The notes under the pieces: generated by a model
The model's database searches: none
What the model saw: the letters and a program-made list of their open reading frames with translations, nothing else
What the model was told of the DNA's origin: nothing
Assembly: GCA_003818285.1 (NCBI GenBank)
Contig: RPRB01000012.1
Span: 1 to 56,318 of the forward strand
From: Myxococcaceae bacterium
GTDB lineage: Bacteria > Myxococcota > Myxococcia > Myxococcales > Myxococcaceae
Length of the DNA: 56,318 nt
Direction of reading: 5' to 3'
In this document: in pieces, positions 38,930 through 56,072 of the stretch
Position numbering within the stretch: the stretch's first letter is position 1
Layout: the number at the start of each line of letters is the position of its first letter
Made by a program: the position numbers and the translations under genes

Positions 38930-39343
38930 TCAGCCCCCGGCGGAGAGCGCGCGCCGCACGCTCCGGCGGACGAGCTGCGTTCCCGCGACCAGCACCGCGA
39001 CCTTGAGGAGGGAGACCAGCACGCCCAGGGGACGCGGCAGGGCCTGGGCGCGCGTGGCGAGCCGGTCCGGGTTCTCCCGGGCACGGCGCAGCCCCTCGAT
39101 CCGGCGCTCGGGGAACCGGGACTGCCGCGAGCGGGAGAGCGCCACGCTCGCGCCGATGATGACCACCATGACCGCGGCAAGCCCCGCGCCCGCGGCGATG
39201 AGCACCCGGCGGTTGTCTCTGATCAACCCGCGCACGTCCAGCGCGCGCTGGGCGCGGCGGTCGAGCTCGCGGAGGGTGACCAGGAACTCGTCGCGGAGGC
39301 GATCCGCGGTCTTCGCGACCTGGGGCTCCTCGACGGAGCTCAC
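38930..39343 (-). CDS. DUF3618-like single-membrane-helix protein
   Basis: The 137-residue protein starts at a GTG (39343) that overlaps the previous stop by four bases. Its N-terminal helix (KTADRLRDEFLVTLRELDRRAQRALDVRGLIRDN) resembles DUF3618, followed by a membrane helix (RVLIAAGAGLAAVMVVIIGASVAL), a basic loop and a second weaker hydrophobic segment (LGVLVSLLKVAVLVAGTQLV). DUF3618 proteins are often coupled with holin-like DUF1469 proteins, exactly as here. The function is unknown. Confidence 0.7.
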   Translation of the reverse strand: MSSVEEPQVAKTADRLRDEFLVTLRELDRRAQRALDVRGLIRDNRRVLIAAGAGLAAVMVVIIGASVALSRSRQSRFPERRIEGLRRARENPDRLATRAQALPRPLGVLVSLLKVAVLVAGTQLVRRSVRRALSAGG

Positions 39344-39744
39344 TGCAGCTCCTCCCGGGTCAGCATCCAGTCCAGCTTCAGCCGGTCGCGGGTGCGCGCC
39401 AGCGGCCGCTTCGGCATCTTCCTCATCGCGAAGAAGGCGAGGAGCGCGGCCAGGCCGAGAACCACCGCGCCGAGCACCAGTGCCGGGATCCACCGCGGCT
39501 CCGGAAGCGCGAGGACGATGGCCATCAGGGCGACGGCCAGCCCCGCCGGAGCGAGGAACAGAGCTCCGCCGAAGAGGATGCCGGCGGTCCGCGCCTCCCT
39601 GAGCTCCTCCTTCAGCTCGGTCCGGGCGTGCAGCGCCTCGGCCCGAACCAGGAGCTTCATCTCGAGGATCGCATGCCGGACCAGCTCCACCGTCGACATG
39701 TTCCGCAGCTGAGCCTCGTCCAGCCGCTGCTCTCCGAGTTCCAC
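39340..39744 (-). CDS. Phage-holin-like (DUF1469, holin superfamily III) membrane protein
   Basis: The 134-residue protein has an amphipathic N-terminal helix (STVELVRHAILEMKLLVRAEA, then LHARTELKEELREARTAG) and two membrane helices (ILFGGALFLAPAGLAVALMAIVLALP and WIPALVLGAVVLGLAALLAFFAM) followed by a basic tail. It matches the chromosomal holin-X family found next to DUF3618 genes in many bacteria; there is no phage context. It starts at a GTG (39744). It is probably a housekeeping envelope protein of unknown role. Confidence 0.8.
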   Translation of the reverse strand: MELGEQRLDEAQLRNMSTVELVRHAILEMKLLVRAEALHARTELKEELREARTAGILFGGALFLAPAGLAVALMAIVLALPEPRWIPALVLGAVVLGLAALLAFFAMRKMPKRPLARTRDRLKLDWMLTREELQ

Positions 39745-39999
39745 GCCTCACCTCCGCTCGACAGGCCACGGCGCCCCGGGCGCCGGGAACGAAGATGGGG
39801 TCAGCACGCGCGATGCGCATCGCCCGACGCACTCGCGGGCCACAGGGGGCCCGCCGGCGAGGCCGTCGGCTGCGTGACAGAGACCACCAACGCCGGTCCT
39901 ACGCCGGAGCATCGCGGATGCTCGAGGCCGCCGGTCGCGGCCGGAGCAGCTCGCCCGGCCTTCGGTCGCCACAGGCCGCGCCAGCTCCGGAGCTCGGGC

Positions 40000-40254
40000 T
40001 CAGGAGCGACCGATGTCCAGCACCGCCTGGAGCCGGGCGACGATCAGCTCCGCACCGGTGAACAGCCGCTCGCCGTCCCAAAGCGCGGGGGTCTCGGCGC
40101 CACCCCGCGCGGCGAAGTCCGACGCCGCCTCCGGGTAGACGACGTTCCGGAACCGCACCACCTCGAGCAGTCCATGATCGACGACCCAGCGCCGAACCCG
40201 GGCCGACCGGGGCTCGTCGAGTCGATGGAACAGCTCGAGGGGCTTCGGGCTCAC
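40000..40254 (-). CDS. Small thioredoxin-fold (glutaredoxin/GST-N-like) protein without Cys
   Basis: The 84-residue protein reads like the N-terminal GST or glutaredoxin domain (LELFHRLDEPRSARVRRWVVDHGLLEVV, then ETPALWDGERLFTGAELIVARLQAVL), including the cis-Pro position in TPAL. The CxxC or Ser position is replaced (EPRS), so no thiol chemistry is expected. It starts at a GTG (40254). It is directly downstream of atpC by 51 bp in the same direction and may be transcribed with the ATP synthase genes. Confidence 0.65.
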   Translation of the reverse strand: MSPKPLELFHRLDEPRSARVRRWVVDHGLLEVVRFRNVVYPEAASDFAARGGAETPALWDGERLFTGAELIVARLQAVLDIGRS

Positions 40255-40305
40255 GACCGTCTGCGCAGGCCGGCGAAGCTCATCGGACCCGCCCGGTGCC
40301 CCGCA

Positions 40306-40716
40306 TCAGCGCCCGCCGGCGCGTGCAGCAGCCACCCGTGCCCGTTCCCGCTGCACGCGCGCGGTCTCCGCCGGAGTCTTCGGATCGCCCGGCCCGAGGG
40401 CTGCCAGGCGCTGCTCGGCCTCGCGGAGCGCCGCCGTCGCGCTCTCCAGATCGATGGAGGCTGCGGGCTCCGCGTGGTCAGCCAGCACCAGCACGGTGTC
40501 GTTCTGCACCTCGACGAAGCCGCCGGCCACGAACCAGGCCTGGGTGTTCGTGCCGTCGCGGACGGTCAACGGGCCGGGAGAGAGGGTGGAGAGGAACGGG
40601 CTGTGTCCCGGACGCACGCCGTACAGTCCCTCGGCGGCGGGGGCCACGACCTCATCGGCGTGCGTGGAGATCAGCCGCCGCTCGGGGGTAACGATATCGA
40701 CGTTCAGCTTGGCCAT
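40306..40716 (-). CDS. atpC: F1F0 ATP synthase epsilon subunit
   Basis: The 136-residue subunit belongs to the central stalk of the F1 sector on the cytoplasmic face. It has the beta-sandwich N-terminal domain (KLNVDIVTPERRLISTHADEVVAPAAEGLYGVRPGHSPFLSTL, GFVEVQNDTVLVLADHA) and a C-terminal helical hairpin (SATAALREAEQRLAALG, ETARVQRERARVAAARA) that can restrain rotation. It is separated from atpD by an unrelated gene for an exported protein. Confidence 0.95.
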   Translation of the reverse strand: MAKLNVDIVTPERRLISTHADEVVAPAAEGLYGVRPGHSPFLSTLSPGPLTVRDGTNTQAWFVAGGFVEVQNDTVLVLADHAEPAASIDLESATAALREAEQRLAALGPGDPKTPAETARVQRERARVAAARAGGR

Positions 40717-40723
40717 CGGGCAC

Positions 40724-41323
40724 TCACTCCTGGAAGTCGAGCCGCCAGGTCCGCGGCTCGACGGTCTCGAATTCCACCTGGTTCCGGTCGTTCACCCGCG
40801 GCTCCTTGCCCGGAATCCCGAGCACGCCCTCGAGCCAGACGAACCGCCGGTCCAGCTTCCTCAGCTTCCGGTGCGCGCTCCTGCCGAGGAAATCCTGAAG
40901 CTTCCGCTGGGCGATGACGTTGCCCAGCCGGTCGTACAGGGAGGCCACCGTCACCGGACCATGGGGATCGAACGGAGGCTTCTTCTTCGACGATCCCTTC
41001 TTCGCCTCCACCGCGGCCGAGGGAGGCGGAGGCAGCGACTTCGGAAGGGCGGCCAGGACCCAGAACCTCTCGCCGGAGTTGCTGACGAAATACAGATCGT
41101 CCACCGTCCCCAGGCACCGAGGCAGGGTCCACGCGACGTCGGTGTCCCGCGTCACCTCGATCCGGCACTTCCCCTCCCCCTCGATGCGCATCACGATGCC
41201 GTACTCGGCGTTGGACGAGGCACGGCCACGGCTCTGACCCGTCTCCTGCGCGGCGGCCCGTCCCGTCAGGACCGTCTGCACCAGCAGGAGCGCCAGGGTG
41301 ATCTCGCACCGGCCGATCCTCAC
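40724..41323 (-). CDS. Exported hypothetical protein inserted between atpD and atpC
   Basis: The 199-residue protein starts at a GTG (41323) with a signal peptide (CEITLALLLVQTVLTGRAAA). A compact region follows (YGIVMRIEGEGKCRIEVTRDTDVAWTLPRCLG, with two Cys), then a Lys/Pro-rich spacer (KKGSSKKKPP), and a C-terminal part ending in PRTWRLDFQE. I do not recognise the family. It is 7 bp from atpC and 23 bp from atpD in the same direction, so it must be co-transcribed with them. It is not an ATP synthase subunit by any visible motif. Confidence 0.7.
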   Translation of the reverse strand: MRIGRCEITLALLLVQTVLTGRAAAQETGQSRGRASSNAEYGIVMRIEGEGKCRIEVTRDTDVAWTLPRCLGTVDDLYFVSNSGERFWVLAALPKSLPPPPSAAVEAKKGSSKKKPPFDPHGPVTVASLYDRLGNVIAQRKLQDFLGRSAHRKLRKLDRRFVWLEGVLGIPGKEPRVNDRNQVEFETVEPRTWRLDFQE

Positions 41324-41346
41324 GGGCGCGCGCCGCGGGCAGCGGA

Positions 41347-43697
<2,351 letters not shown>

Positions 43698-43775
43698 GGG
43701 AGGTCGGGGGGGCCCCTTACAGCCCGGTGGCCCCGGAATCAACCACCGTGCACTCCGGAGGTCCCCCTGCGCCGC

Positions 43776-44384
43776 ATGAGGAAAAGCCTGGCCCTGGGAT
43801 TCGCCCTGCTGCTCGTCGCGGCGGTGGTCCCGACCACGTACATCGAGCTGACCACCCGGCGGCACGTGGTCTCGCCCGAGGCGGCACCGGCGGTGCCCTG
43901 GGGAATCGTCTTCGGGGCGGGCCTGGCCCCCGGTGGAGAGCCCTCCCCCATCCTCGCGGAACGGCTGGAGGCGGCGATGCTGCTCTGGCGGACCGGCCGG
44001 GTGGAGCGGCTGCTCCTGACCGGCAACACCGACCCGTATCACGACGAGATCCGCTCGATGCGCCGCTACCTGACCAAGGGTGGCGTGCCGGAGCGGGCGA
44101 TCTCGGTGGATCTGGAGGGCCTCTCCACCTTCGATAGCTGCTGGCGGGCCCGCGGGGTGTTCGGGGTGCAGAGGGCGATCCTCGTCACCCAGGCGTTCCA
44201 CCTCCCCCGAGCGGTGTTCCTGGCCCGGGCGGCGGGGATCGACGCGGTCGGCGTGCGCGCCGGGGGCGGACGGTGGCGTGCCCCGTACGTCTGGCGTGAG
44301 CTGCTGGCCCGGCCGCTCGCCCTGGTGGACGCCTGGGTGCATCCCAGGCCGCCGCTCCCGGCCGCCACCCCCCTCGCCGGCTGA
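43776..44384 (+). CDS. SanA/YdcF-like DUF218 membrane-anchored protein
   Basis: The 202-residue protein starts with a single membrane anchor ([22 protein letters not shown]) and then the DUF218 fold: [52 protein letters not shown], and [28 protein letters not shown]. SanA of enteric bacteria affects envelope permeability to vancomycin; others in the family are enzymes of unknown reaction. The ATG at 43776 is preceded by GGAGG at 43757-43761. It diverges from atpG. Confidence 0.85.
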
Positions 44385-44395
44385 GCCCGATCGGC

Positions 44396-44422
44396 GGGCG
44401 TCCCCCTGGTGCGGGGGGCTGA
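44396..44422 (+). repeat. 27-bp element, copy 2 (identical to 5793-5819, opposite strand)
   Basis: It contains the CCCCC-TGGTGC-GGGGG hairpin core and lies 41 bp before the ATG of the acidic protein gene, in the same orientation relative to that gene as copy 1 is to the VOC gene. Confidence 0.75.
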
Positions 44423-44463
44423 GCTTGTCAGGCCACGCGCCGCGGCCCACCTTCCGCGGCACC

Positions 44464-44856
44464 ATGCCCAGCTCCCAGGACGAAGAACTCGACAGCACGC
44501 CGTACGAGGGCGACCGCCCCGGACCTCACCCCGTGGACGTCCTCCAGGAGCTCCCCGTCGACGGGGAACCGACGAGCGAGACGCAGCTGATGAGCGACGC
44601 CGAGCTCGACCCACGCGAGGTCGAGGGGGACCGGTTCGAGGTCGGCAACGACGACCTCGGGACGGCACCGGACCTCGAGGAGGACCCGGACGCGCCCGAC
44701 CTCCGGCCGGACCACGTGGAGCGCATCACCGAGTCGGGCCTCATCGAGGAGGACCCGGAGCCGGACGACGACGACGATGGGCTCACCGCGCGGCCCACTG
44801 CCCGGACCCCGGACGACGACCTGGTCGAGCCCACCGAGCCGGACGAGCTGTCCTGA
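44464..44856 (+). CDS. Highly acidic small protein
   Basis: The 130-residue protein is dominated by Asp, Glu and Pro ([58 protein letters not shown]). It has no hydrophobic segment, so it is probably cytoplasmic and disordered. I do not recognise a family. The ATG at 44464 fits the sequence composition break. [23 protein letters not shown] motif suggests repeated VDxL or DG patterns, but nothing functional can be claimed. It has its own leader containing the repeated 27-bp element. Confidence 0.65.
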
Positions 44857-49186: not shown

Positions 49187-51055
49187 CTAGGCGACCTCGC
49201 CCGCGTTCTGGGCGGCGCTCGAGGGAGCCCGACCGGCGGTCGCCTCGCCAACCAGGGTCCCGAGCCGTACGGCGACGTCGCTCATCTGCAGGCGGTTCTT
49301 CGCCTGCGCCGCCGTCCGCCCGATGTGCACCAGGGAACGCAGATCGTCCACCAGCTTCACCGTCGCGGCGCGCTCCTTTTCGTCGTCGCTCCGCCGCGCG
49401 CCGGCCTCGAGCGCCCGGCGGAGGGTGTCCCCCTGCTCGAGCAGCGTCTCGAACTCCGCGAGCTCGCGCGTCTCGGGGTCCGCCTTGTCGGCGTGGTACG
49501 CAGCCTGCTCGGCGCGCAGCACCGTCACCTCGTCCGCCGAGAGCTCGGTGCGCTGGGTGATGCGCAGCGCCTCGGCGAGTCCGCTGGTCAGGTCCATGCA
49601 GCGGACGCTGACCGTCCCCTCGCTGGACAGCTCGAAGGTTACCTCGAGCGGCGTGTCCGCCCGGTACTTCACCCGGAGGTCGCTGAGCAGCACCTCGCCG
49701 AGCTTCACGTTCTCCTCGGCCTGATCCGATTCGCCCTGGTAGATGACGATGCGGGCCTTGTTCTGTCCCCCGGCCGAGGGGAGGAACACCTCGCGGGCCA
49801 CCGCCGGGATGGCGGTGTTCTTCCGGACCACCTTCCGGACCCCGCCTCCGTACACCCCGACGCCAAGCGAATGGCTCGCGACGTCGATCAGCAGCGTCTC
49901 CCCGTGCTGCGCGACGATCTCCGAAGCGTGCACCGCAGCGCCCAGCGCCACGACCTCGTCCGGGTTCACACCCACCACGGGCTGCTTCCCGAACAGCTCG
50001 GCCACGCGCTTCCGGATCAGCGGAACGCGGGTCATTCCCCCGACCAGCAAGATGATCTGGATGTCCTTCTGGCTGGAGCTTGCCTCCTCCATCATCTGCC
50101 TGGTCACGTCCAGGGAGCGCACGACCAGCGGCTCCACCTGGCGCTCGAACTCGGCCCGGGACAGCCGAACGTCGAGGTCCATCAGGGTGCCACCGGGCTC
50201 GTGGTCGCCGATTCCGGTGGCGGTGACGTACGCCTCGTCGCTCTGCGAGAGATCGCGCTTGGCCTGCTCGGCGGCCACCCTGAGGCGCTGGAGCGAGATG
50301 GTGTCGTGCGCCGCCACCTCGCGCTGGGCGAGCGGCAGCTGCTCCAGCAGCCACTGCACCACCGCGGCATCGAAGTCCTCGCCGCCCAGCACCGGGTCAC
50401 CGCCCGTGGCCTGGACCTGGAAGACGCCCGATTCCACCTCGAGGATCGACACGTCGAAGGTGCCGCCTCCGAGGTCGAACACCAGCGCCTTTCCCTCGAA
50501 CTTCGAGGTCAGGCCGTAGGCCACCGCCGCCGCGGTGGGCTCATTGACGATCCGCAGGACCCGGAGGCCGGCGATCTCCGCCGCCTGCTTCGTCGCCGCC
50601 CGCTGGTTGTCGTCGAAGTTGGCGGGCACGGTGATGACGCACTTGTGCACCGGACGGCCGAAGTGAGCCTCGGCGTCGAGCTTCAGCTCGCCCAGCACCA
50701 TCGCCGAGATCTGGGTGAGGGGGAGGACGCGTCCGGCGATCTTTGCTCGCACCTCGCCGTTCGGACCCTCCACCACCGGGTAGGGCACGAGCGTTCGCGC
50801 CTCGTGCACGAGCTTCGGGCTCCAGCGGCGCCCGATGAATCGCTTGGTCGCGGCCGCCACGTCCGCCGGCCGGGAAATGGCGAGCAGCCGGGCCTCCTCG
50901 CCGATCACCCGCTTTCCGTCCGGCGTGAAGCCCACCAGAGACGGGGTCAGCGAGCGGCCAGCCCGGCTCGTCAGCAGGCGAGGCTTGCCGTTCTCCACCG
51001 TGGCCACGGCGCTGGTGGAGGTCCCGAGGTCGATGCCCACCACCGGTTCGCGCAT
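49187..51055 (-). CDS. Hsp70/DnaK-family chaperone paralogue
   Basis: The 622-residue protein has the full ATPase half (VVGIDLGTSTSAVATVE, VITVPANFDDNQRAATKQAAEIAGL, IVNEPTAAAVAYG, LVFDLGGGTFDVSILEV, IILLVGGMTRVPLIRKRV) and a beta-sandwich substrate domain (LIDVASHSLGVGVYGGGVRKVVRKNTAIP). The C-terminal lid is divergent, and the protein ends in AQNAGEVA rather than the acidic tail of the main DnaK. No grpE or dnaJ is adjacent. In Myxococcota, additional DnaK proteins are known in motility and development, so this may be a dedicated paralogue. It diverges from atpH. Confidence 0.93.
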   Translation of the reverse strand: MREPVVGIDLGTSTSAVATVENGKPRLLTSRAGRSLTPSLVGFTPDGKRVIGEEARLLAISRPADVAAATKRFIGRRWSPKLVHEARTLVPYPVVEGPNGEVRAKIAGRVLPLTQISAMVLGELKLDAEAHFGRPVHKCVITVPANFDDNQRAATKQAAEIAGLRVLRIVNEPTAAAVAYGLTSKFEGKALVFDLGGGTFDVSILEVESGVFQVQATGGDPVLGGEDFDAAVVQWLLEQLPLAQREVAAHDTISLQRLRVAAEQAKRDLSQSDEAYVTATGIGDHEPGGTLMDLDVRLSRAEFERQVEPLVVRSLDVTRQMMEEASSSQKDIQIILLVGGMTRVPLIRKRVAELFGKQPVVGVNPDEVVALGAAVHASEIVAQHGETLLIDVASHSLGVGVYGGGVRKVVRKNTAIPAVAREVFLPSAGGQNKARIVIYQGESDQAEENVKLGEVLLSDLRVKYRADTPLEVTFELSSEGTVSVRCMDLTSGLAEALRITQRTELSADEVTVLRAEQAAYHADKADPETRELAEFETLLEQGDTLRRALEAGARRSDDEKERAATVKLVDDLRSLVHIGRTAAQAKNRLQMSDVAVRLGTLVGEATAGRAPSSAAQNAGEVA

Positions 51056-51157: not shown

Positions 51158-51697
51158 ATGGTGAACGTGTCCGTCGCCCGCCGTTACGCCCGGGCGCTCC
51201 TCGAGGCGAGCGCTCCCGGCGACGTGGTCGGCATCGCCGATCAGCTGAGCGCGCTGGCCGGGCTGGTGGCGTCGAATCCGGCGCTGGGCGACGTCATCGA
51301 GAATCCTGCCTACTCCCGCGCACAGCGGCACGGAGTGGTGGATGGGCTGAGCCAGCTGCTGAAGGTCGAGTCGACCATGCTGCGCAACTTCCTTCGCCTG
51401 CTGGTGGACCGCCACCGGCTCGCGATGCTCCCCGACATCGCACGGCTCTTCCGGGACATGGCGGACGAGAAGGCCGGGCGGGTGCGGGGAACCGTGGTGA
51501 GCGCCATTCCGCTCGACCCCCAGTCCATCCGACAGCTCGAGTCGACACTGTCACAGGTCGTGCAGAAGCAGGTGGTGCTCGAGACCCGCGTGGATCAGGA
51601 GGTCCTGGGCGGGGTGAGCACCCAGGTCGGCTCGGTGGTGTTCGACGGAACGCTGCGCAGCCAGCTCGACGACCTGAAGCGCGCACTTCAGAGCTAG
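51158..51697 (+). CDS. atpH: F1F0 ATP synthase delta subunit
   Basis: The 179-residue subunit (OSCP-type) joins F1 to the peripheral stalk. The N-terminal helical domain (VNVSVARRYARALLEASAPGDVVGIADQLSALA, LRNFLRLLVDRHRLAMLPDIARLFRDMADEKAGRVRGTVVSA) and the C-terminal part (SQVVQKQVVLETRVDQEVLGGVSTQVGSVVFDGTLRSQLDDLKRAL) are typical. The ATG at 51158 fits. It is not next to atpA or the b subunit; a kinase gene and then a 670-bp gap separate it from atpA. Confidence 0.95.
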   Translation: MVNVSVARRYARALLEASAPGDVVGIADQLSALAGLVASNPALGDVIENPAYSRAQRHGVVDGLSQLLKVESTMLRNFLRLLVDRHRLAMLPDIARLFRDMADEKAGRVRGTVVSAIPLDPQSIRQLESTLSQVVQKQVVLETRVDQEVLGGVSTQVGSVVFDGTLRSQLDDLKRALQS

Positions 51698-51811
51698 ATC
51701 GGCGCGGATGTAGGCAGCGCGTTTCCTGCTCCGGACGCTTGCCGGCAGCGCGCGAGTTTGTGGTTTCATCACCCGAGCAGTCCGCTCATCTCCTCCCCGG
51801 AGCCCGTGCGC

Positions 51812-53857
51812 ATGCTCGAGGGCGATCCCCAAGGCCCTGTTCCATCCGTCGTCGGTGCCGCCGATCCGCTGATCGGCCGCATCCTGAACGACCGCTTCCG
51901 CATCCTGTCGCCGCTGGGCTCCGGCGGAATGGGGAAGGTCTACAAGGCGGTGCAGACTCCGCTCGACCGCGTGGTGGCGCTGAAGATCCTCAACCCGAAC
52001 TTCCCGGCGGAGAAGGATCCGGCGTTCAAGCGGCGCTTCTTTCTCGAGGCCAGCCTCACCTCGAAGCTCCGCCATCCGAACACGGTCACCGTCATCGACT
52101 ACGGGCAGACCGAGGACGGCATCTACTTCATCGCCATGGAGTACATGGAGGGGCAGACGCTGGCCGAGGTGCTGGCGCACGAGAAGACCCTTCCCTGGCG
52201 GCGGGTGCTCGACATCGCCCAGCAGATCTGCCGCTCGCTGCGCGAGGCGCACAAGCTGGGCGTCATCCACCGTGACCTCAAGCCGGCCAACGTGATGCTC
52301 CTGAACGAGGCCGACCACGACATGGTCAAGGTCCTCGACTTCGGGCTGGTGAAGTCGTTCCTCGCGACCGATGGCCAGGCCGGCGATCCCGAGGTCACCC
52401 AGAACGGGGTCTTCCTGGGCAGCCCGCAGTACATGGCGCCGGAGCAGGCCCGGAACGTGGCGGACCCGCGGAGTGACGTCTACTCGCTGGGCATCCTCGT
52501 CTACCAGATGCTCGCCGGCCGTCCGCCGTTCCAGGGCAAGGACTACCTCGAGGTCATCTTCCAGCACATGAAGGAGCTGCCCCGGCCGGTGCGGGATCTG
52601 AATCCCGCCGCCGAGGTTCCGCCGGAGGTGGAGGCGGTGGTGCTGCGCTGCCTCCAGAAGGACCCGACGGCGCGTTATCAGTCGATGGACGAGGTGCTCG
52701 AGGCGCTGCGCGAGGCCGCGCTGCTCACCGGGATGAGCAGCATCTTCCCCGAGCGGCGCACGACCACCGGCTCGGGTCCGATGTCCACCTCGGGGATCCA
52801 CGCGCGGGCCGGGTCGGGTCCGATGTCCACGTCCGGGCTTCACGCGCGCAACATCTCGGGCCCAGTCACCGCGCCCCGCGCACAGGTCGACCGGGAGATC
52901 GAGATCGAGGACGCGGGCGAGCCGAGGAAGGGCGGCAGGCTCCTTCCGGCGCTGCTCTTCGTCAGCGCGGTCCTCCTCGGATTCGTGGTGGTGTGGCTGC
53001 TCCTGCCCAAGGGAGAGCAGGCCCAGGTGGTGACCACCCCGCCGCCGCAGCCGGCGCCCGTTCCGGCTCCGGTGGTCGCCGCGCCGAAGCCGCCCGAGCC
53101 GGCTCCGGCACCCGAGAAGAAGATGGTGCGCTTCCACGTCTCCACCGAGCCGGCCGGGGCGCACGTCTTCATCGGACGTCACGACATGGGGACGACTCCC
53201 ACTGTCTTCGAGCTCCCGGCCGGCGCCGACGGAATGGCCAACGCCGAGATGGTGCTGGCGCTCGATGGATATCCGACGCAAGCCATCACCTCCGGCGGCT
53301 CGGGCGACGTGGTCGTGAACGCCAAGCTGCAGAAGAAGGTCGTGATGCGCGTCGAGAAGCCGGTGCCGCTCACCAAGCGCGAGGAGGAGCGTGAGCGCGA
53401 CGAGGGCAAGGCGGCCCCGGTGGCGGTCCGTGCCGAGGCGGGCGCCGCGGCGGCGGTGGCTCGCGGTGCGTCGACCCAGCCCCAGGCACAGCCGGCCTCC
53501 GTCGGCTCCACCGCGACGAAGCCGGCGCAGGCGCCCGCGGCTCCGGCGGCGGAGGCGCCCCGCGACGTGGTGCCGTTCGGCGAAGGCATGACCCGTCCGG
53601 TGCTCCTCCAGTCCGGGCGGCCCATCACCTACAGCCGCGAGGCGATCGCGGCCCGGGTGGAGGGGGTGAGCATCGTCCGCTGCGTCATCACCGCCGAGGG
53701 GGCAGTGGAGCGGTGCAAGGTGATCAAGCCGCTACCCTTCATGGACGAGGCAGTGGTCGAGCACCTCCAGACCCAGCGGTTCCAGCCCGTCTCCTACCAG
53801 GGCCACCCGGTCTCGGTGGGGTACAACTTCTCCGTCCGCTTGACCCTGCCGAGGTAG
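51812..53857 (+). CDS. Ser/Thr protein kinase fused to PEGA-like and TonB C-terminal domains
   Basis: The 681-residue protein has a complete kinase domain at about 27-300: GSGGMGKV, Lys58, HRDLKPAN at 153-160, DFG at 176-178, and APEQ at 209-212. A Ser/Thr-rich linker contains a 14-residue repeat (GSGPMSTSGIHARA, then GSGPMSTSGLHARN). One membrane helix (378-398) leads outside to a Pro-rich spacer, a PEGA-like beta domain (438-508), and a TonB C-terminal domain (593-680: PITYSREAIAARVEGVSIVR, LPFMDEAVVEHLQTQRFQPV, VGYNFSVRLTLP). The kinase is therefore cytoplasmic and the TonB-like tail periplasmic. The ATG at 51812 is preferred over earlier GTG starts. Confidence 0.88.
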   Translation: MLEGDPQGPVPSVVGAADPLIGRILNDRFRILSPLGSGGMGKVYKAVQTPLDRVVALKILNPNFPAEKDPAFKRRFFLEASLTSKLRHPNTVTVIDYGQTEDGIYFIAMEYMEGQTLAEVLAHEKTLPWRRVLDIAQQICRSLREAHKLGVIHRDLKPANVMLLNEADHDMVKVLDFGLVKSFLATDGQAGDPEVTQNGVFLGSPQYMAPEQARNVADPRSDVYSLGILVYQMLAGRPPFQGKDYLEVIFQHMKELPRPVRDLNPAAEVPPEVEAVVLRCLQKDPTARYQSMDEVLEALREAALLTGMSSIFPERRTTTGSGPMSTSGIHARAGSGPMSTSGLHARNISGPVTAPRAQVDREIEIEDAGEPRKGGRLLPALLFVSAVLLGFVVVWLLLPKGEQAQVVTTPPPQPAPVPAPVVAAPKPPEPAPAPEKKMVRFHVSTEPAGAHVFIGRHDMGTTPTVFELPAGADGMANAEMVLALDGYPTQAITSGGSGDVVVNAKLQKKVVMRVEKPVPLTKREEERERDEGKAAPVAVRAEAGAAAAVARGASTQPQAQPASVGSTATKPAQAPAAPAAEAPRDVVPFGEGMTRPVLLQSGRPITYSREAIAARVEGVSIVRCVITAEGAVERCKVIKPLPFMDEAVVEHLQTQRFQPVSYQGHPVSVGYNFSVRLTLPR

Positions 53858-53951
53858 TTCCCCGGTTCGGCCATCGACGACGGGCGCCGGGCCTCGAGCC
53901 GGAGCTCGGCTCCTGTCGGGTCACCTCGAAGCGGGTCTCTGCTCGGCTTGC

Positions 53952-53981
53952 GCCCTCGATTTCATTCGAGATGACGAGGGC
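53952..53981 (+). terminator. Candidate stem-loop downstream of the kinase-TonB gene
   Basis: GCCCTCG and CGAGGGC form a 7-bp stem enclosing a second small pair (TCAT and ATGA). It is 95 bp after the kinase stop codon and ends GCTTGG, so it is a weak terminator candidate. Confidence 0.4.
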
Positions 53982-54085
53982 TTGGACGAGCTCCCCGAGA
54001 GGAGATGCCCCCGCGCTGGTACTCGGGGAACTGAGCGTCGATGAGCCGCATCACCATGGTGAGGCCCCACGAGGTCCGCCTCACG

Positions 54086-54100
54086 AGGTGTCTGGCACCT
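54086..54100. repeat. Solitary REP-like palindrome
   Basis: The core AGGTGTCTGGCACCT, preceded by TCACG, is the same as at 36376, and matches the 22.4-kb cluster. Confidence 0.7.
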
Positions 54101-54527
54101 GCGGGGGAGCCCTGCGGGGACGTCCCGGAGGGGGTCTTCCGGCGCGGGGATGTCCGGAGCATGCCGCGGAGGGCGCCCCGTCGGTTTCGTGCCCATGACG
54201 TCCGGCGTGCAGGCAGGCGCCGCCCTGCATTGACGGGTCGCCGTGCCTCCTCGCGCGGACGCGGTCGCGCCGGCCCTCGCAAGCTGGAAGCCTGGCGCCC
54301 GCCGGGCCGAGGCACTCAACTCGGCGCGAGAACAGCGGCAGGTCGCGCGCCCGGGAGGCCCCGTCCACCCGCATCCTCTGCCGTTGCGAGCGCTGCACAC
54401 CGATGGTAGAGCCCCCGCGCCCCTACGGGCTCAGCAACCCCGGGCGACGTGCACGCCGGGACAGGACCTCGCCGCAGCGGCTCCTGCCCACGTCCCCGAA
54501 GCGCTCCCGGCCCCGACAGACGAAACC

Positions 54528-56068
<1,541 letters not shown>

Positions 56069-56072
<4 letters not shown>

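Follow-up and report, generated by a model that had tools for sequence, protein, structure and literature searches.

atpI and gene X of Rhodopseudomonas blastica are extra genes in atp operons, the latter lying between the genes for the gamma and beta subunits. The gene order of the ATP synthase is stable even across distant bacterial classes, according to passages of PMC5709465. PMC3696898 reports that atp genes of Sorangium go up at pH 9; no extra gene is mentioned in the passages concerned. Among the papers listed by searches of the open-licence literature (Myxococcus, myxobacteria, ATP synthase), none describes by its title or the start of its abstract a gene between atpD and atpC. We analysed a stretch of 56,318 nucleotides from a Myxococcaceae bacterium (contig RPRB01000012.1), here called the window, which has a gene at this place; we use the name atpX for it, or X when loci are compared. 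Due to the fact that gene order is so stable elsewhere, and yet a non-subunit gene stands between the beta and epsilon genes in 14 of the 26 sampled genera of the window's family, atpX is a clear target for study. We regard it as an extra gene of the atp operon that encodes a member of an unnamed domain family. The model organism Myxococcus xanthus carries it as well, and at stake is whether M. xanthus has an unrecognised periplasmic partner of its ATP synthase or an atp operon that hosts an envelope gene.

In the window, atpX occupies 40724..41323 on the minus strand and encodes 199 amino acids from a GTG start. Upstream of it is atpD (F1 beta subunit; 41347..42789, minus; Pfam PF00006, 1.5e-68), whose stop codon is 23 bp from the GTG, and downstream is atpC (F1 epsilon subunit; 40306..40716, minus; PF02823, 3e-25), whose ATG follows the end of atpX after 7 bp; the initial annotation had placed the reading frame and both spacings exactly. 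The first gene of this four-gene unit, atpG-atpD-atpX-atpC, is an open reading frame at 42825..43697 (minus, start set by eye), which we take, from the features of the family, to encode the F1 gamma subunit. In three other loci (L032–L034), the gene that precedes atpD shares 63–67% identity with it. By eye, an AGGAG-like ribosome site of atpC overlaps the last codons of atpX in the window, and a GAGG-type site stands ahead of X in 12 of the 21 orthologues viewed. For the other nine, the window's own gene among them, no such site was seen, so that X may be translated there by coupling to atpD. A search of 39900–44500 for promoter- and terminator-like sites gave none, which is a weak test in this DNA since the expected counts were just 0.1 and 0.8. 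From the spacing and the conserved order with atpG, atpD and atpC, expression together with the ATP synthase is likely, as had been proposed, and atpX would be transcribed and translated from the atp message.

Several features around this unit are recorded here as side observations. The F1 genes of the window are split by strand, with atpH and atpA, and a Ser/Thr kinase-like gene between the two, on the plus strand (51164–56072) and atpG-atpD-atpX-atpC on the minus strand (40306–43697). In other genomes atpH is ∼116 kb (G007 and G011), ∼141 kb (G023) or ∼9 kb (G021) from atpX, so that atpX belongs, in these genomes of the family, to a gamma-beta-X-epsilon unit that stands apart. Two genomes from other families (G036 and G054) have atpH next to atpA. 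Divergent from atpH is an Hsp70-like gene (49187–51055, minus), and this pair recurs in 10 of 12 atpH loci, all 10 from the window's family. Several noncanonical Hsp70s are described for M. xanthus in passages of PMC8265645. Within 1.5-kb flanks, the kinase is also found beside atpH in both loci of G021 and is not found in the other 10 of the 12; G021 has two atpH-Hsp70-kinase loci (L129 on C11 and L139 on C63), by duplication or assembly artefact. After atpC come a short frame that looks glutaredoxin-like by eye and has no Pfam match (40000–40254, minus) and a Holin-X family membrane protein gene (39340–39744, minus), and M. xanthus (L033) has homologues of both, likewise ordered and further downstream.

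An initial protein search gave matches in 26 of 60 genomes, including the window's own. From 25 X sequences, an alignment of 23 orthologues (A1) was made after omission of the duplicates L031 and L034 (L031–L034 appear, from their length and position, to duplicate the records G001, G086, G138 and G034), and its profile was searched against 145 genomes of the order. At E ≤ 0.001, 82 genomes matched, with 92 matches in total; two weak matches of the first search (L023 and L024) were not recovered at this threshold and were set aside. The matches fell into two groups: 71 lie 4–109 bp upstream of an atpC match on the same strand, all with E < 1e-40, and the remaining 21 (E 8e-6 to 1e-20) are all located away from atpC. 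A strong homologue is thus found directly upstream of atpC in 71 of 145 genomes, and the matched span is free of stops in 71/71. In all 53 loci checked, from 43 different genomes by our own count, the order is atpD-X-atpC on one strand, with 1–76 bp between the X stop and the atpC start.

The window's family (f1) was sampled with 96 genomes. A detectable atpC is present in 94 of them, and X is beside it in 70 of these 94, Myxococcus included, as counted by comparing the match tables of X and atpC; conservation in related genomes, which the initial annotation had named as the check on its proposal, was therefore found. X is missing from 12 of the 26 genera, and no genus is mixed except g26, where one genome (G103) has neither X nor atpC detected, which suggests an assembly gap. 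Outside the family, X was seen in only one of the 49 sampled genomes of the order (G036, family f2). Carriers by name include Myxococcus xanthus AM003, Myxococcus sp. CA023, Archangium lansinium and a Myxococcaceae metagenome-assembled genome. Where a close X homologue is missing, atpD and atpC stand −4 to 73 bp apart in 24 of 25 loci from 24 genomes, 16 of which belong to the window's family (the family total with atpC and without atpX also being 24), in keeping with the premise that the beta and epsilon genes are almost always adjacent. In the 25th locus (L053) the gap is 263 bp, with no X-like frame inside.

To describe the constraint on X, Nei–Gojobori dN/dS was calculated for 10 pairs, which share members and of which several have dS < 0.1, so that single values are noisy. 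The ratio for X was below 1 in 10/10 pairs, above that of atpD in 9/10 and above that of atpC in 9/10. In a same-genus pair (dS 0.53), it was 0.34 for X compared with 0.07 for atpD and 0.05 for atpC; the exception was the pair L009/L011, with 0.073 for X and 0.330 and 0.082 for the neighbours. X is hence under constraint, looser than that on its neighbours. Identity of the orthologues in A1 to the window's AtpX drops as low as 25%. The codon-position GC of X resembles that of its neighbours, with a GC3 of 0.94 against 0.96 and 0.95 in 53 loci. A neutral insertion, which the initial annotation had offered as one option, is contradicted by the lack of stops in 71/71, by dN/dS < 1 in 10/10 pairs and by this neighbour-like GC3. 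atpX is a real, inherited and preserved gene of the Myxococcus family.

For the history of X, its presence and absence were mapped on a tree of atpD (46 rows, three of them under half length), which omitted the duplicates L007, L031 and L034, also L059 and L090–L094, and all loci from L060 on. Four changes are needed on this tree. If the other families serve as outgroup, these are most simply read as one gain followed by three losses (in a clade of 14 rows, in G009 and in G025). An alternative of two gains and two losses costs the same four changes, but the shared place of X and its single clade favour one gain. G036, the carrier from family f2, is placed within the window's family on the atpD gene tree. 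One gain with three losses would mean that atpX is dispensable, and hence the gene appears to be both old in the Myxococcus family and dispensable.

At the protein level, the N-terminus of AtpX, MRIGRCEITLALLLVQTVLTGRAAA followed by QE, resembles a Sec/signal-peptidase-I signal peptide by eye, with predicted cleavage between RAAA and QE after residues 1–25 (41249..41323, minus). The orthologue starts that we viewed likewise have short hydrophobic N-termini, many with an AxA end. The mature window protein has two cysteines, Cys53 (codon 41165..41167, minus) and Cys70 (codon 41114..41116, minus), and a third, Cys6, is within the signal peptide. Both mature cysteines are invariant in 23/23 orthologues of A1 and in 42/42 rows of a wider alignment with paralogues (A2), which comprises 29 atp-located copies (L032, L033 and 27 others) and 13 paralogues, and from which L030, L102 and L104–L107 were omitted as near-copies or the same loci. 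Across A2, only these two cysteines and one tryptophan are invariant (C47, C64 and W155 in M. xanthus numbering), a pattern that points to a structural disulphide and to a place in the envelope; Cys53 and Cys70 are probably disulphide partners. Pfam and NCBIfam gave no match at E 0.01 for any of the 42 family members, and hence none to the families of F1 or Fo subunits either. With the window's AtpX alone, just sub-threshold matches were obtained, to SH3_15 (Pfam, E 0.11) and to UvrA (E 0.033), and when PDB sequences were searched with a profile, two matches at chance level came up, both to Homer (E 0.19 and 0.2). The earlier description as a signal-peptide protein with two cysteines and without a known family therefore stands, with the signal judged by eye.

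The AtpX domain is also found outside the operon. In a tree, the atp-located copies form one clade against the 13 paralogues (support 97/88, and 98% of bootstrap trees), with long branches flagged, e.g. L021. The A2 profile matched 88 of 195 genomes sampled from the phylum, the order itself included, and all 88 are labelled Myxococcales; in this sample the unnamed domain family is seen only in that order. Judged by eye, a lipobox-like sequence opens 9 of the 15 paralogue loci viewed and a segment resembling DUF4124 closes 8 of them, and when four paralogues were searched against Pfam, DUF4124 appeared in one at E 0.0095, below its cut-off. The window's AtpX has no DUF4124 match up to E 1 in Pfam and no lipobox by eye. 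The open reading frames around the paralogues at four loci showed no shared theme. In G009, where atpD and atpC are adjacent, a long frame (L022/L105) joins an AtpX-like domain to a start that resembles a zinc ribbon and to a membrane-like segment. Since the frame is longer and clusters with the paralogues, it probably does not represent an orthologue that has moved.

AlphaFold2 models of the window protein (from A1) and of the M. xanthus protein (from A2) had a mean pLDDT of 82 and 91, respectively. Both are mostly beta, with paired strands, and in our own reading of the strand lists the strands group into about three sets. The best VIA matches of the window model were clathrin terminal domains (Z 8.8, rmsd 3.0 over 106 residues). 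The M. xanthus model was matched best by an IFT-A chain, with Z 8.4 and rmsd 2.1 over 101 residues, and next by Hsv2 with Z 8.3. We take all of these to be propellers; the best Z values of 8.8 and 8.4 barely exceed 7–8, which is typical of this tool for models without a clear match. In Foldseek, the top three matches of the M. xanthus model were by title self-assembling propeller fragments (6r60 and 6r5y), with the three-blade 6r5z at rank 18, and these entries are presumably the structures of PMC6805158. Neither model gave a Foldseek E-value ≤ 0.001, and TM-scores on the query were 0.18–0.41 among the matches listed, mostly with large rmsd. Because the two models are consistent and nearly all of the listed structural matches of both are propellers, AtpX is predicted to be a propeller fragment of about three blades, on modest matches. 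A closed ring of 4–12 blades is not present in the monomer models, so that ring closure would take self-assembly or a partner protein, and the AtpX family may be a natural half-propeller.

Taken together, we consider it reasonably probable that AtpX is a periplasmic protein of the envelope, that it draws on the atp operon for growth-linked expression and that it is not a subunit of the ATP synthase. In our model, atpX would be translated from the atpG-atpD-atpX-atpC message, and the predicted signal would send the product through Sec to become a small soluble periplasmic protein, probably held together by the Cys53–Cys70 disulphide. It is predicted to fold as about three beta-propeller blades, would most likely complete the propeller by pairing with itself or with another protein, and the closed propeller may then bind another envelope protein. 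The atp operon would serve as a steady, growth-linked source of expression for this envelope job, and AtpX would act as a binding protein of the periplasm, present at a level that rises and falls with that of the ATP synthase. Against this model, the place of the gene, fixed through most of the family, could also mean that this level must track the ATP synthase.

Alternatively, atpX might be a passenger with no link to energy metabolism, inserted at a site that tolerated it and offered strong expression, and fixed in place since rearrangements of atp operons are rare. The repeated losses that we infer, the fast evolution and the freestanding paralogues would all agree with this, but the gene is uninterrupted in all 71 carrier genomes; we regard it as unlikely, and hard to tell apart from the growth-linked envelope protein, where the sole addition is a benefit from the link to atp expression.

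A physical role in the ATP synthase was the other proposal of the initial annotation, as assembly or envelope coupling. In its fuller form, AtpX would be a periplasmic accessory that helps to insert, stabilise or gate Fo (subunit a or the c-ring) from outside, with co-translation alongside beta and epsilon fixing its stoichiometry. The fixed place in an F1 operon, in 71 of 145 genomes and 14 of 26 sampled family genera, speaks for this, as does the retention of the gene while its orthologues diverge to 25% identity with the window's. However, the predicted signal peptide would put AtpX outside the membrane and F1 is inside, the gene seems to have been lost three times from operons that kept atpD and atpC together, X changes faster than both neighbours in 9/10 pairs, and relatives of AtpX live away from atpC. 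Moreover, the linkage is to F1 genes, to which the search was confined. For these reasons an accessory of this kind is a minority reading, somewhat less likely still than a passenger, and a direct role in the ATP synthase, for which location was the argument, is possible but unsupported. A more specific version, in which at least two half-propellers of a lineage-specific periplasmic Fo partner form a disc under subunit a or the c-ring, tuning proton entry or motor stability, strikes us as quite improbable. If true, the ATP synthase of the Myxococcus family would have an outer-face component that other bacteria lack.

AtpX could also act in the cytoplasm with its signal unused, as a regulator of F1 like epsilon, zeta or IF1. 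Only the location between the beta and epsilon genes points that way; the signal-peptide-like starts of the orthologues viewed, two invariant cysteines suited to the periplasm, lipoprotein-like paralogues and the mostly beta fold of both models make it very doubtful. That the frame is spurious or decaying, as one of the many long open frames that high-GC DNA yields on both strands or as a neutral insertion, was dropped as next to impossible, because homologues with invariant residues, dN/dS < 1, the codon-position pattern of the neighbours and 71/71 spans without a stop all oppose it.

Regarding a periplasmic envelope protein with growth-linked expression as the preferred reading, AtpX can be compared with four known systems. 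TolB is a complete propeller plus an extra N-terminal domain. The C-terminal beta-propeller of TolB, in the Tol–Pal system, is periplasmic, as AtpX is predicted to be, whereas AtpX would have about half the blades. TolB was among the Foldseek matches of the window model (ranks 6 and 10) and matched the M. xanthus model in VIA with Z 6.4 and rmsd 3.8–3.9 over 114–115 residues; the profile search of PDB sequences gave no sequence match of AtpX to TolB. The DUF4124 envelope proteins share with the AtpX domain family the DUF4124-like ends in 8 of 15 paralogue loci, from which the window's AtpX differs by having neither a DUF4124 match nor a lipobox. With the self-assembling propeller fragments (6r60 and 6r5y at ranks 1–3, 6r5z at rank 18), AtpX would share, by its predicted fold, a few blades in place of a whole ring, but the superposition is poor (TM 0.27–0.37 on the query). 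Propellers are almost always made of one polypeptide chain, according to PMC6805158, and the fragments, by the title of that work, are experimental and have identical blades, whereas AtpX is natural, its blades are unlike one another and its assembly is only proposed here. Finally, atpX resembles atpI and gene X of R. blastica in being a non-subunit gene within an ATP synthase operon, and differs from the latter in its place.
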